From assembly GCF_024170465.1 (NCBI RefSeq), contig NZ_JALJYF010000001.1, forward strand, positions 1,488,001 through 1,552,000: 64,000 bases of DNA. Direction: 5' to 3'. This DNA comes from Natronospira proteinivora. GTDB lineage: Bacteria; Pseudomonadota; Gammaproteobacteria; Natronospirales; Natronospiraceae. The position numbers and the translations under genes were made by a program. Positions 18,133 to 38,765 of the stretch are shown here, piece after piece. Each line of letters starts with the position of its first letter. Position 1 is the first letter of the stretch. The notes beneath the pieces are model-generated. The model did no database searches. It was not told where the DNA came from and worked only from the letters and a program-made list of their open reading frames with translations.

Positions 18133-18156
18133 TCAAGCGATTACCGTTCAGGCGCG
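18122..18156. terminator. Hairpin shared by the ends of two convergent genes
   Basis: CGCGCCTGA and TCAGGCGCG form a 9-bp perfect stem with a 15-nt loop. The left arm is the last codons and stop of the P-type ATPase gene; the right arm is the last codons and stop of the opposing acetyltransferase gene. No T-run follows, so termination activity is only a possibility. Confidence 0.35.
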
Positions 18157-18618
18157 TTCATCACTAATATACCTTGTCATAAAAACACTATTTGGATCCT
18201 TAGCATAGCTGCCAAACGGCCCGCATGGTTTGAACCCGAAGGCTGAGTATAGCTTCCTTGCGGGTTCGAAGAACCCCATTGAACCAGTCTCAAGACTAAG
18301 TTGACTGTATCCACGTCTTTTAGCTTCAAGGATAATGTGGCTTAGCATTTTGGATGCCATACCTTTTCGCAAATAGGGCCGTGCGGTTTTCATCGACTTA
18401 ATTTCTGCATGCTCCTCCGACAGATGCTTCAACGCCCCAACACCCACGAGCTCTTTACCGTCCCACATAGACCAAAACATGATGTCACGTCCACGCAGCC
18501 CATCCAGATCAAGCGCATGCCGACTCTCAGGTGGAGCAGTTGGCGCCATTGACTCAAGATGCTCGCGTATCAACGCGACGACTTGTGGACTATCCAAGTT
18601 ATCAAGTCTTATTTCCAC
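18148..18618 (-). CDS. GNAT family N-acetyltransferase (cassette-borne)
   Basis: 156 residues starting at GTG 18618 with AGGAGG 7 nt upstream. The acetyl-CoA loop is recognisable around YLRKGMASKMLSHI (about 81-94), followed by the typical C-terminal LSLETGSMGFFEPARKLY helix/strand. The substrate is unknown. It is the left-most (array-terminal) gene of a same-strand cluster of short, lower-GC genes separated by attC-like palindromes, i.e. integron cassettes. Confidence 0.85.
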   Translation of the reverse strand: MEIRLDNLDSPQVVALIREHLESMAPTAPPESRHALDLDGLRGRDIMFWSMWDGKELVGVGALKHLSEEHAEIKSMKTARPYLRKGMASKMLSHIILEAKRRGYSQLSLETGSMGFFEPARKLYSAFGFKPCGPFGSYAKDPNSVFMTRYISDERA

Positions 18619-18693
18619 AGCTGCCTCCTGACGTCTGCATTATAACCCACGCGACGAAGTGGCATCGACTTGAATAAATCGTCAGACTTGTTG
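18619..18693 (-). repeat. Degenerate attC-like spacer between acetyltransferase and OXA cassettes
   Basis: A 75-bp spacer starting just after the OXA stop (TAGCAAC, minus strand) and ending with GTTATAA-TGC, resembling the ends of attC sites but not matching RYYYAAC/GTTRRRY. Short inverted segments lie inside. Its position and size fit attC; the sequence match is weak. Confidence 0.35.
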
Positions 18694-19482
18694 CTATGGG
18701 GTCGGAAGTGCATCAATGGATTGCAGGATCGCACGAGTTATCTGTTCTCGCTTGGCAAGGTCGCCAGTTCGATTGGGAGTATCGATGTTGAGTGCGAAGA
18801 AGACCGGCCCGGACGGCCACTCAACCCAGCCAACCCACCAGCCCATCTGGCCGTCCCAACCGGTCTTTGCACGTAGAATCCAGTCTGTTCCAGCTTCAAC
18901 AATCATAACGTCCTTCACTAGGCGTTGATGCTCGGATTGGAAGGGAAGATCATTTTTGTAAAGCCACTTCAGGAATGAGACTTGCTCTTGGGCAGAGATA
19001 CCGAGATTACCATAGATCCAGTAATCGCCTTCGTCAGTTGATGGGTCGGCGTTACCATAGTCGATCCTTCTTAGGTAGCGCCCCGCCCTCTCCTCACCAA
19101 TATCTTTGGCGAACTGCTGAAACACCCAGACTGCCGAGCTCCGCATGGCCGAACGAAGATTCTGGTCATGATTGTGACCAGCAAAGCTTCGTTCAACTCC
19201 GTCCCACTCAAACACCTGAAACTCATCGCGAACAGCACCGGCATCCAGCGCGAACAGCGTATGCGGGATCTTGAATGTGGAGGCAGGGGAAAAGCGTTTG
19301 CTTGCTCGTTCCTGTCCATAGACCCACATAGCGCGGCTCTTTTCACGTTCGTCAGCCACCACGATCGTGCCTTTAGCATCAAACTCGTCGAAGAACCCGG
19401 CCCAATCAGAACGCTCCTGATCAGCACCGTAGATCGGGAAGGCGACAGCTAATAATAAAAACGAAAGGGATTGGACTCGCAT
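18694..19482 (-). CDS. Class D beta-lactamase, OXA-2-like (cassette-borne)
   Basis: 262 residues, full length with a signal peptide (cleavage near YGA). All class D motifs are intact: S68-T-F-K71, S116-A-V118, Y142-G-N144, K206-T-G208 and the WWVGWVEWP strand. Stretches such as SPASTFKIPHTLFALDAGAV and FALNIDTPNR match OXA-2 subgroup proteins as I remember them. A Shine-Dalgarno TGGAGAA precedes the ATG. Upstream is a well-formed attC. It hydrolyses beta-lactams in the periplasm; the spectrum cannot be predicted. Its presence in an attC-bounded cassette of an apparently environmental chromosome is notable. Confidence 0.93.
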   Translation of the reverse strand: MRVQSLSFLLLAVAFPIYGADQERSDWAGFFDEFDAKGTIVVADEREKSRAMWVYGQERASKRFSPASTFKIPHTLFALDAGAVRDEFQVFEWDGVERSFAGHNHDQNLRSAMRSSAVWVFQQFAKDIGEERAGRYLRRIDYGNADPSTDEGDYWIYGNLGISAQEQVSFLKWLYKNDLPFQSEHQRLVKDVMIVEAGTDWILRAKTGWDGQMGWWVGWVEWPSGPVFFALNIDTPNRTGDLAKREQITRAILQSIDALPTP

Positions 19483-19495
19483 TGTTTCTCCAAAG

Positions 19496-19573
19496 GTCTA
19501 ACGCCCGCCATAAGCGGCCGAGTGAAACAAGGTCCGGCGCACGGAGTGCGCGAACTTGGTGGCTTGGTTAAGC
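19496..19573 (-). repeat. attC recombination site 1 (between acetyltransferase 2 and OXA)
   Basis: On the minus strand it begins GCTTAAC (RYYYAAC) and ends GTTAGAC (GTTRRRY) within the typical GCGTTAGAC core; 78 bp. A central inverted repeat, GCGCAC/GTGCGC with a short loop, is flanked by further imperfect pairing. The stop codon of the preceding gene falls inside the first box, as in many cassettes. Confidence 0.8.
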
Positions 19574-20041
19574 CTCATCACGGAAAACTTTGCGCATGAG
19601 TGCGTTTGGAACGACTACTCCCCGCAACTCGGGCGCCCGTTGTTCAATTATGCAGAACCCGAATTTTTCAAAGAAAGGCTGAGCCGTCCGACTGACATCG
19701 GATGTCAGTTCTGTCAAACCAAGCGAGACTGCCTCACTGTGAAGAGTCGACATCAATAACCTTCCAATTCCCTGGCCTGGGTGATATCCAGAGACGAAAA
19801 AGTGGTCAATATAGCCAGAAGGCTGCAGATCAGCATAACCAACAATCTTTCCGTTAATCTCTGCGACAAATGGCTTAATATCACGAATCTTCCGTGCCCA
19901 AAGCTCCTGATCCAAGCGTACCGGCGCCCAAGCATTAATTTGCTCCGGTGTGTAGTCGCGACTTGCAACACGATGAATCGCCGAGTGAAAGACTCCGAAA
20001 AGCTCGCGCTCTTCACCAATACGAAAGCGACGGATATGCAC
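19568..20041 (-). CDS. GNAT family N-acetyltransferase (cassette-borne)
   Basis: 157 residues. The acetyl-CoA motif HPGQGIGRLLMSTL is near residue 90, and the C-terminal SRTAQPFFEKFGFCIIE segment is typical of the PF13673-like YafP/ElaA-type group. AGGAGC precedes the ATG. The stop lies inside the downstream attC site. The substrate is unknown; cassette GNATs often modify antibiotics, toxins or small metabolites, but nothing here indicates which. Confidence 0.87.
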   Translation of the reverse strand: MHIRRFRIGEERELFGVFHSAIHRVASRDYTPEQINAWAPVRLDQELWARKIRDIKPFVAEINGKIVGYADLQPSGYIDHFFVSGYHPGQGIGRLLMSTLHSEAVSLGLTELTSDVSRTAQPFFEKFGFCIIEQRAPELRGVVVPNALMRKVFRDEA

Positions 20042-20068: not shown

Positions 20069-20701
20069 TTAGGCATTATTGCACGAACTCGTCAGGCAGC
20101 TTGCAGGCAGCACAGACCCACAAGGCTTACAGCTCTCGCCTTCTGAATCCAAAGGTCCTGCAGTGATGCCCTGCCGAAAATTCCGGCAAACCCACTCCAT
20201 AAATCGTTCCGGCAAGCCTGCCTGATGGTTTACCCTAGCACCTCGACCTCCGATCATAGCTAGAAACTCCTCAGGCACGTCTGAGCGAGCTTTTCCCAAA
20301 TACCAGAACTCTTTACCAGCAAACACATACGGGACTCGGGTGTCTTTATCCAGCATTCCTTGATGAAATGGGTTGGGAATCTGAAACCATGAACCTTTCT
20401 CATCTTGCCAGTATAAGTTATCGCCGCATCGCTCTTTCCACCCACCAGTCATTAACGGCTTCTTATATTGAAATATAGGGTCGTAGAAATATTCGTTCAT
20501 GTGGATTCGCTCATCCACCTTCATCGCATAGATGAATTGGTAGCCTTCACTTTTTGGAGAAAATCCAGCTATCCAATCACCCTTTCTGACCGCACTACCT
20601 TGGTGGTTCGGGGTACAAACCGCCAAAGTACACCAGCCATCAAATGGATTTGGGGCCAGCCCAGAGTCGACGTTGACGATGTACGTGTAGAGCCTGCTCA
20701 A
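20069..20701 (-). CDS. Nmad2-like putative nucleotide-modification associated protein (cassette-borne)
   Basis: 210 residues from a TTG codon at 20701, with AGGGGGA 5 nt upstream and an attC end (GTTAAGC) just before it. The N-terminus (RLYTYIVNVDSGLAPNPFDG) with a following GDWIAGFSPK strand resembles nucleotide modification associated domain 2 proteins, a family linked to modified DNA bases in phage and defence contexts. The last 20 residues (CGSVLPASCLTSSCNNA) look like read-through into a recombination spacer. The family assignment is from memory of its N-terminal pattern. Confidence 0.65.
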   Translation of the reverse strand: MSRLYTYIVNVDSGLAPNPFDGWCTLAVCTPNHQGSAVRKGDWIAGFSPKSEGYQFIYAMKVDERIHMNEYFYDPIFQYKKPLMTGGWKERCGDNLYWQDEKGSWFQIPNPFHQGMLDKDTRVPYVFAGKEFWYLGKARSDVPEEFLAMIGGRGARVNHQAGLPERFMEWVCRNFRQGITAGPLDSEGESCKPCGSVLPASCLTSSCNNA

Positions 20702-20715
20702 AGGTCCCCCTAAAT

Positions 20716-20783
20716 GCTTAACGCTTCAACTCCGCCGCGCCCTCGCCGAAGGCGAGGACGTCGGATGGAGTTGTTGGTTGGGT
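20716..20783 (-). repeat. attC recombination site 2 (downstream of small membrane protein cassette)
   Basis: On the minus strand it begins ACCCAAC (RYYYAAC) and ends GTTAAGC (GTTRRRY); 68 bp. Interior arms CAACTCC...CCTCGCC pair with GGCGAGG...GGAGTTG around a TTC loop, the attC hairpin architecture with unpaired bases. It overlaps the 3' end of the cassette gene. Confidence 0.85.
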
Positions 20784-21135: not shown

Positions 21136-21234
21136 ACACAACGCAAAGCTGAGCGGCGGGCTTGGAGCGCAGCGCAAAGCCCGTCCGGCGGAGGCCCGAC
21201 TAGGGCCGGAGCGTACTCAAGCGCCTGGTTATGG
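21136..21234 (-). repeat. attC-like site 3 (variant boxes)
   Basis: A 99-bp spacer that on the minus strand begins CCATAAC and ends GCGTTGTGT, one or two positions off the attC box consensus, with G+C-rich inverted segments between. It lies between two cassette genes exactly where attC is expected. Confidence 0.5.
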
Positions 21235-21281: not shown

Positions 21282-21803
21282 TCACCCCATTTCAATAAGC
21301 AGTAATATGAAAGATATCCATGCAATTATGACGAAAAACTGCGCGCCATTCCGCCATACATTGGGCCCTTGATATCTTTTCGTGCTTCGCCACAGTACAA
21401 TCAATGAATAAACCGTATAGCCTCCGGATATTAAGACGAACCCACCAACCAAACCAGAGAGTTCAGCTATCGCAGCTCCCACAAACAATGCGACAAACCC
21501 ACCAACCCAATATACGATCCAGAAAGCAATCGGCAATGGAACATCACCCTGCCAAAGTCGCGCGAAAACGTTCTCATCCGGATCAGTTCCGTAACCAGGG
21601 CGCGCAGCTATAAATTCTGCAGCATCTGACTTTTCTCTTTCAGACTGATAAACATCGTAATCGATACCCCTATCAGCCAATTCCTTATGCGCGAGCTCTT
21701 TAGCCTCAGGAGTTAATCCTCCCCCTGCGACAAGGTCAACTAAGTCGTCTGTGCCCGACTCTCGATAGCGACTTTCTAGCTCCTCTTTATTGGGCTTATC
21801 CAT
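21282..21803 (-). CDS. Hypothetical membrane protein (cassette-borne or array edge)
   Basis: 173 residues: an acidic soluble N-terminal half (residues 1-85, rich in E/K/D) followed by three hydrophobic segments (about 92-172). GGGAGT precedes ATG 21803. It lies in the low-GC cluster and is followed by an attC-like spacer, so it is probably the first recognisable cassette. No family recognised. Confidence 0.65.
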   Translation of the reverse strand: MDKPNKEELESRYRESGTDDLVDLVAGGGLTPEAKELAHKELADRGIDYDVYQSEREKSDAAEFIAARPGYGTDPDENVFARLWQGDVPLPIAFWIVYWVGGFVALFVGAAIAELSGLVGGFVLISGGYTVYSLIVLWRSTKRYQGPNVWRNGAQFFVIIAWISFILLLIEMG

Positions 21804-21823: not shown

Positions 21824-22000
21824 TTATTCCTCGGGACTGATTGGGAGCCCTCTACCCTTCGAGCCTAAAAGATAGAGCCACCAAATATTTAGAGCAATCA
21901 ACCCGATAGGAATAGTCCCGGCAACAGCATGGCCATTGACAAACAGAATAAATGACGCACCAATCAACGCGGTGTTATTGCAGTATCGTGACTGCTTCAT
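21824..22000 (-). CDS. Small hypothetical membrane protein
   Basis: 58 residues from ATG 22000, chosen because GGTGGAG lies 3-9 nt upstream; the frame is open to 22189 but without protein-like character. Two hydrophobic stretches (about 10-42). It stands at the right edge of the cassette cluster, with no attC between it and the next gene. Function unknown. Confidence 0.45.
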   Translation of the reverse strand: MKQSRYCNNTALIGASFILFVNGHAVAGTIPIGLIALNIWWLYLLGSKGRGLPISPEE

Positions 22001-22261
22001 AACTCCACCATTCCGGCAAAAACGAGCAAGCAAAAAAACTATATAGGTCAGCCCCTTAGGTCCTAAGCGGTCAATATCTCGCGTATTCGCTTGCCTTCCA
22101 CATTCTGTGAATTCAATCATACTCCCCGGCCAGGCACGATCATTGCCCAGGCTGGTGAAGGTCGAAATAGTTTGGGAAGTCGAACGCATGGCGGGGCCTG
22201 CTCCTTGGCTTTGGTCTCAGCATAGCGCATTGAGGGGATTTTTCGAGGCGGGAACGTAAAA
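22001..22261. other. Intergenic region at the edge of the cassette cluster
   Basis: About 260 bp (more than 300 to the next gene stop) of mixed composition between the cassette cluster and the methionine lyase gene. No gene, attC or clear promoter is recognised; the 22001-22189 part is an open minus-strand frame without family resemblance. Confidence 0.3.
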
Positions 22262-22312: not shown

Positions 22313-23533
22313 TTATCCGGCCTTTCGCAGCTCTTCCTTGTCGTCGAGCTGGGCGAAGGCCTGCTGCAGGTCGGCGATGATGTCTGCGGGGGTTTCCAGG
22401 CCGACGGAAAGGCGGACCAGATCATCGCTGATGCCGTGCTCGGCGCGTTCCTCGGGGCTGAGCACGGAGTGGGTCATGCTGGCCGGGTGCTGGATGAGGC
22501 TTTCGGCGTCACCCAGGGAGACGGCGCGGCGGATCATGGTGAGGCTGTTCATCAGGGTGCGGCCGGCTTCCACGCCGCCCTTGATGTCGAAGGCCATGAT
22601 GGCGCTGAAGTCGGCCATCTGCTTTTTGGCCAGGGCGTGCTGGGGGAAGCTTTCCAGACCCGGGTAATAGACCCGCTGCACATGGGGCTGAGCCTCCAGC
22701 CATCGGGCGATATCCATGGCGGTTCTGGACTGACGCTCCATGCGCACTTCCAGGGTCTTCAAGCCCCGCATGAGCAGGAAGGCGGTGAAGGGGGACATGA
22801 CCGCGCCGGTGAAGTCCTTGAGGCCGGTGAGGCGGATGTTGAACATGTCTTCTTCACTGCCCAGCAGGATGCCGGCGACCAGGTCGCCATGGCCGCCCAG
22901 GTATTTGGTGGCGGAATGGACCACGAAGTCCGCACCCAGTTCGATGGGGCGGGTGTTGACCGGGGTGGCGTAGGTGTTGTCCACAGCCACGCAGGCGCCG
23001 TGCCGCTTGGCGATCTTGGCCACGGCCTCGATGTCCACCAGGTCCATGGTGGGATTGGCCGGGGTTTCGAAATAGACCACTTTGGTCTTGTCGCTGATGG
23101 CGGCTTCGAGATTAGCGGGATCGGAGAGATCCACATGGGTTACTTTAATGCCGAACTCAGCCAGGCCGTGGTTGAAGAAGGCGTGGGTGCAGCCGTAGAG
23201 GGTGGTGTCGGTGATCAGCTCATCACCGGGGCGCAGGATGCTCCACATCAGGGCGGTGATCGCACCCATGCCGGAGGCAAAACCCAGCGCGGCCTCGGCC
23301 CCTTCCAGGGCGGCCATGCGCTTTTCCAGCAGTTCCACGGTGGGATTGGAGATACGGGAGTAGAAGTGCCCCGCCTCCTCACCCGCAAAGCGGGCAGCAC
23401 CCTGCTCGGCACTGTCAAAGGCGAAGGTGGAGGTGATATGCATGGGCGGGGTCAGCGCGCCCTGCTCCTCGGAGGGCTCGTAGCCGTAATGGATGGCACG
23501 GGTGGCGAAACCTGAATGTTTATCGGCAGCCAT
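22313..23533 (-). CDS. mdeA: PLP-dependent methionine gamma-lyase
   Basis: 406 residues, Cys/Met metabolism fold-type I enzyme. PLP lysine K210 lies in HSATKYLGGHG. Tyr113 and Cys115 (LYGCTHAF) correspond to the Tyr114/Cys116 pair that distinguishes methionine gamma-lyase from cystathionine synthases and lyases. The C-terminal SLGDAESLIQHPASMTHS block is nearly that of the Pseudomonas enzyme as I remember it. It splits methionine to methanethiol, ammonia and 2-oxobutyrate. The divergent neighbour is an Lrp-type regulator, the same arrangement as mdeA-mdeR. Confidence 0.88.
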   Translation of the reverse strand: MAADKHSGFATRAIHYGYEPSEEQGALTPPMHITSTFAFDSAEQGAARFAGEEAGHFYSRISNPTVELLEKRMAALEGAEAALGFASGMGAITALMWSILRPGDELITDTTLYGCTHAFFNHGLAEFGIKVTHVDLSDPANLEAAISDKTKVVYFETPANPTMDLVDIEAVAKIAKRHGACVAVDNTYATPVNTRPIELGADFVVHSATKYLGGHGDLVAGILLGSEEDMFNIRLTGLKDFTGAVMSPFTAFLLMRGLKTLEVRMERQSRTAMDIARWLEAQPHVQRVYYPGLESFPQHALAKKQMADFSAIMAFDIKGGVEAGRTLMNSLTMIRRAVSLGDAESLIQHPASMTHSVLSPEERAEHGISDDLVRLSVGLETPADIIADLQQAFAQLDDKEELRKAG

Positions 23534-38406: not shown

Positions 38407-38589
38407 GCGCAGGTCTCCCGTGGTCAATGACTGGGACGGCGCAGTTTAACGCAGTTGACCATTGCCAGACAGACGCCCGTCCTCACTCGCCTTTTCTTTC
38501 ACAAGCCGACACGGCAGGGCCTAGCGCCTGTAGTTGTTGGGCGTCACTTGAAGCAGTACCGGATTCCGCATAAAATGCGCTCAGCCATT

Positions 38590-38752
38590 GGGGAGTAGCC
38601 GCCCCGACCCCTCGGGGGCCCGTGTCAACAAACTTGGTCCACAGACCATGGCACGGGCAGCCTAACGGCCTGGCAAGACCTTTGGCACCTCACTATCCCT
38701 GCCGGGAGCCGGCGGATAGAGAGGTGTCATTGTGTTCTCTGCCGGCTCCCGC
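38590..38752 (+). ncRNA. yybP-ykoY manganese riboswitch (candidate)
   Basis: The 5' element GGGGAGTAGCC (38590-38600) and the 3' part ATGGCACGGGCAGCC...CTGGCAAGACC resemble the yybP-ykoY aptamer as found before alx and mntP. It is followed by a strong hairpin (38704-38713 with 38741-38750) that abuts the ribosome site AAGGAT of the next gene, a possible expression platform. The gene it precedes encodes a GDT1-type Mn exporter, which fits Mn2+ sensing. Confidence 0.7.
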
Positions 38753-38765
38753 AAGGATCAGAATC

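Follow-up and report, generated by a model that had tools for sequence, protein, structure and literature searches.

A class D beta-lactamase gene cassette in a probable chromosomal integron remnant of Natronospira proteinivora

The locus and its genes

The window, meaning the whole 64,000-nucleotide stretch of Natronospira proteinivora DNA that was analysed, contains a cluster of genes and attC sites that all lie on the minus strand (Table 1). The cluster has a P-type ATPase gene on one side and, on the other, a gene for a PLP enzyme, which we take to be of the methionine gamma-lyase type. The G+C content is 0.51 in the cassette island as compared to 0.63 in both of the flanking genes. One gene of the cluster encodes an OXA-type beta-lactamase and is the sole copy in its genome; since it resides on a 1.57 Mb contig, it is taken as chromosomal. 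Elsewhere in the window there is a manganese (yybP-ykoY) riboswitch at 38578-38759 (82.7 bits).

Table 1. Features of the cassette cluster and its gamma-lyase end (window coordinates)
Feature	Position	Strand	Basis or remarks
Final ORF of the cluster (GNAT acetyltransferase)	18148..18618	-	ORF list, Pfam
attC of the OXA cassette	18626..18687	-	R' core GTCAGGA, R'' GTCTGAC; 14.7 bits, E 0.33 alone
OXA gene cassette	18632..19501	-	DNA homology limits; starts at the crossover point in GTTAGAC (G at 19502) and reaches its own attC core (G at 18632)
Class D beta-lactamase CDS, OXA-2-like, 262 aa	18694..19482	-	ORF call, curated model, motifs
attC of the GNAT cassette before the OXA cassette; forms the left boundary of the latter	19496..19573	-	20.2 bits, E 0.018; fold z -2.2
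GNAT acetyltransferase cassette ORF	19568..20041	-	ORF list, Pfam
Nmad2-domain (nucleotide modification associated) ORF	20069..20701	-	Pfam PF18753, E 3e-41
attC of the 133-aa ORF cassette	20716..20783	-	27.0 bits, E 4.7e-4; fold z -3.5
ORF without assigned function, 133 aa	20726..21127	-	3' end runs into its own attC
attC-like site	21138..21234	-	13.3 bits alone; blastn to an integron attC of G002
ORF without assigned function	21282..21803	-	
ORF without assigned function, gamma-lyase end of the cluster	21824..22189	-	where relatives have intI
Methionine gamma-lyase-type gene	22313..23533	-	anchor of the genus's chromosomal integron locus

The OXA protein

An initial sequence-only reading had placed an OXA-2-like class D beta-lactamase with intact catalytic motifs at this position, and the minus-strand ORF occupies exactly that interval. 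The protein has an N-terminal signal-peptide-like stretch and the motifs STFK (68), SAV (116), YGN (142), DYW (153) and KTG (206), all of which are intact; STFK, SxV, YGN and KTG have the order and spacing expected of class D. The protein also passed the curated class D model bla_class_D_main (NF012161) with 282.1 bits against a cut-off of 250. The long matches to the OXA-2 group described in that reading are real: the protein and OXA-2 are 69.1% identical over 262 aligned residues (99% of the length) with long identical runs, and the alignment gaps are confined to the signal-peptide region and the C-terminal end. By sequence, the best relatives with a solved structure are OXA-2 and OXA-46, and the 69% identity to the solved OXA-2 allows the fold to be taken as safe.

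The two nearest genes are those of the Halomonas sp. 54_146 MAG (L002) and Thiorhodospira sibirica (L001). Rough pairwise estimates of dN/dS against these two genes are 0.14-0.25, which indicates that the protein is kept under purifying selection. Periplasmic serine hydrolysis of beta-lactams is established for OXA-2-type enzymes, and we predict the same activity for this protein from its family. The enzyme would be exported to the periplasm and would open beta-lactams by a serine mechanism in which the Ser of STFK is the nucleophile and its Lys the general base. OXA-2 has been listed as a carbapenemase (PMC4790369).

A promoter scan found none near the OXA gene (site counts were at chance level), and so resistance of the host is not implied. 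Because no clear promoter was seen and an integron promoter would go with the integrase gene intI (see below), expression of the OXA gene is uncertain.

attC sites and limits of the cassette

The attC sites were located with a covariance model built from 20 training sites, which came from clinical integrons, L002 and the other integron arrays of the host, and none of which came from the window. The model replaced a regular-expression search, which was dropped because it gave about four chance hits per shuffled 64 kb. The attC pairing was entered by hand from the known structure because RNAalifold gave no consensus structure on the training alignment. Across the window, its three top-scoring matches (20716-20783, 19496-19573 and 18626-18687) share the minus strand and lie within 2.2 kb of each other.

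The sequence-only reading had also described an attC next to the gene in a chromosomal cassette cluster, and this description holds: one site is immediately upstream of the OXA gene and a further one follows the 133-aa ORF. The attC-like site is 90% identical by blastn over 92 bp to positions 10389-10480 of L119, an integron locus in the same-genus genome G002, where the site scores 21.2 bits. The model found no attC after the last GNAT ORF. The site directly after the OXA stop codon folds no better than its shuffles (z +0.48), and its core is altered, with GTC in place of GTT. It is colinear with the homologous site of L001, which scores 25.0 bits (E 7e-4), and apparently the OXA cassette's own attC has decayed. 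The sites after the OXA genes of L002 and of a Lake Pavin MAG (L008) have E-values of 6e-5 and 4e-5, respectively.

The DNA homology extends from 19505 to 18629 with L001, where it ends inside the attC, and from 19503 to 18678 with L002, with none beyond these points. These limits imply that the shared unit begins at the upstream GTT crossover core. The OXA gene has the two ends of an integron gene cassette, a GTT core at the start and an attC at the end, and the clinical OXA-2-type copies are likewise cassettes.

One might instead suppose that the genus has this class D gene as a chromosomal housekeeping gene, with attC sites nearby by chance; indeed, most of its relatives in the environmental branch described below are without an attC beside the gene. 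However, the L001 and L002 homologies are bounded by the cassette core, the G+C content is lower, and among 39 relatives' genomes only one, that of G002, has any class D genes, which are just 37-38% identical. We consider this explanation extremely improbable. The absence of the family from the 39 relatives beyond 38% identity, together with the G+C difference, argues that the OXA gene was acquired. The distant homologs in G002 are located at C14:3123-3848 (L081) and C9:34-753 (L082).

A probable chromosomal integron remnant without an integrase gene

Both of the same-genus genomes examined, G001 and G002, have an ortholog of the gamma-lyase (89-91%), followed by intI and then by attC-bearing cassettes. 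The intI genes score 395-396 bits with TIGR02249 (cut-off 265) and are transcribed toward the gamma-lyase. The orientation of the cassettes in the window matches this locus, and beyond the gamma-lyase, on its other side, the window and G002 are syntenic. The far flank, where the ATPase gene lies, shows no conservation in the relatives. No intI was found in the window, where a tblastn search for IntI remnants gave chance-level hits only, and the sole intI of the genome, at C1:559121, is not beside these cassettes. The window therefore lacks a complete integron and has instead a CALIN, which is defined as an attC cluster without an integrase that has at least two attC sites (PMC9024848); here the two are 20716-20783 and 19496-19573, as detected by the purpose-built covariance model rather than by IntegronFinder.

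The simplest reading is that the cluster is the remnant of an ancestral chromosomal integron that lost its intI. The loss is deduced from no more than two related genomes, one of them a fragmented assembly. Such a loss has been described at the ilvD locus of Xanthomonas (PMC12444791). Like that locus and other CALINs or degraded sedentary integrons (PMC9024848), the cluster is an attC cluster without an integrase at an ancestral integron site; unlike them, it is anchored at a methionine gamma-lyase-type gene and carries a beta-lactamase gene.

The genome does have a second, complete integron 0.93 Mb from the cluster, with an intact IntI (404 bits, C1:559121-560047) and an array of at least 10 attC sites (C1:565027-578679). 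Thus, the cluster may never have been in an intI-bearing integron in this organism, its cassettes having been inserted in trans by this different IntI at a secondary site. We think this unlikely because in both same-genus genomes intI stands at this very site, because one attC is 90% identical to one in G002, and because the IntI of the other integron shares only 67% identity with that of the genus locus. The same 67% identity rules out that the host's IntI is simply a relocated copy of the genus-locus IntI.

A further attC cluster is present in the same genome at C3:59901-66838 (L104), and no intI was found there. The OXA gene of L002 ends in a canonical attC that differs from the one in the window and matches sites of the N. 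proteinivora genome at 93-97% identity, one of them (97%) in L104. This similarity points to a shared cassette pool.

Relatives and phylogeny of the OXA gene

The nearest curated families are OXA-2, OXA-46, OXA-20 and OXA-732, and the protein is 69-70% identical to the OXA-2, OXA-46-like and OXA-732 enzymes. However, it failed all four subfamily cut-offs: 442.9 bits against 590 for OXA-2, 433.5 against 600 for OXA-46, 425.6 against 585 for OXA-20 and 417.3 against 585 for OXA-732. Therefore, the proposed link to the OXA-2 group stands as to the nearest known families, and membership in the group does not. For scale, OXA-46 and OXA-20 are 80.5% and 75% identical to OXA-2, respectively (PMC4790369). 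The window enzyme has the class D family and motifs in common with the OXA-2 group (OXA-2, OXA-21 and OXA-46), OXA-20 and OXA-732; the mature parts align almost without gaps and all are cassette-borne with an attC 3' of the gene. It differs from them in being only 68-70% identical, outside the curated cut-offs, in a separate branch of the tree and not found on the plasmids searched. Among 72,556 plasmids, 86 records have a full-length relative at 60-80% identity, the best of which is an OXA-46-like gene at 69.7%; none of the full-length relatives exceeds 70%, and the few slightly higher values are partial matches.

The top match among species-level genomes is L002 (80% identity by tblastn, 79% globally), followed by L001 (77%) and L008 (71%). 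These three genes resemble the window gene in having an attC-type site after each of them, whereas their genomic places differ. Other relatives occur in Idiomarina, Aliidiomarina, Methylophaga, Shewanella, Colwellia, betaproteobacterial and cyanobacterial genomes. At several loci with 69% identity (L007 and L009-L015), the gene is in fact the clinical OXA-2 or OXA-21 cassette. Two of them, in Corynebacterium lemuris (L007) and a Levilinea MAG (L012), are on short contigs in unexpected hosts, which contamination or binning errors may explain. No further match at E 1e-60 came from 369 sampled genomes of the class, and the viral contigs searched had no relatives of the gene.

In the phylogenetic tree, which does not include OXA-20 itself, the window gene and L002 form a pair (bootstrap/SH-aLRT 100/97) within a larger environmental branch of 15 rows that has moderate support only (81/90). 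OXA-2, OXA-21, OXA-46 and OXA-732 are in another clade (96/94). The sequence-only reading had suggested a possible reservoir lineage of the mobile OXA-2 group. The idea that the gene is a member of this group, or the reservoir from which it directly came, has in its favor the nearest families and the fact that the clinical copies are cassettes too. However, in addition to the missed cut-offs and the top plasmid match of 69.7%, AU tests rejected the placement of the window pair with OXA-2/21 (p 1.4e-5), with OXA-46/732 (p 1.4e-4), with both (p 5e-6) and as the only sister group to the clinical clade (p 0.001). This idea is largely refuted, and we give it little chance. The rejection of a grouping with the OXA-2/OXA-46 clade alone would make the window gene part of a sister lineage rather than the reservoir that directly gave rise to the clinical genes. 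A looser version, in which the clinical clade and the whole environmental branch form one clade, was not rejected (p-AU 0.23). Because the later AU groups were defined with the first tree already in view, their p-values are indicative.

A single clade of all the cassette-borne genes was rejected (p 9e-5), and by parsimony the cassette state needs six changes on the tree; since decay of attC sites can hide cassettes, these changes include losses as well as gains. It is conceivable, though we would not favor it yet, that in environmental bacteria integron cassettes arose from OXA-2 superfamily genes on several independent occasions. If so, the OXA-2 and OXA-46 cassettes would be only the clinically visible cases, and the window, L001, L002 and L008 genes would be further ones, with that of the window still at a chromosomal integron locus.

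Conclusions

On the sequence evidence, we consider it quite probable that the gene encodes a functional class D (OXA) beta-lactamase and is one cassette in the remnant of the genus's chromosomal integron. The cassette would have arrived by IntI recombination, presumably from a cassette pool common to halophilic and other environmental proteobacteria; intI would have been lost afterwards, and with the decay of its attC the OXA cassette would have become fixed. OXA cassettes and degraded chromosomal integrons are both known kinds of element, of which this locus is a new example, and judged from the sequences the gene is related to OXA-2 and OXA-46 as a cousin and is not their direct source.

The locus thus looks like an integron minus its integrase, with a potential resistance gene left behind. 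It adds one more concrete link between environmental chromosomal integrons and the beta-lactamase cassettes found in hospital integrons; attC structure had already led to the proposal of such an origin (PMC8352920). At the same time, it cautions against naming such genes as the source of OXA-2, because the tree rejects that.
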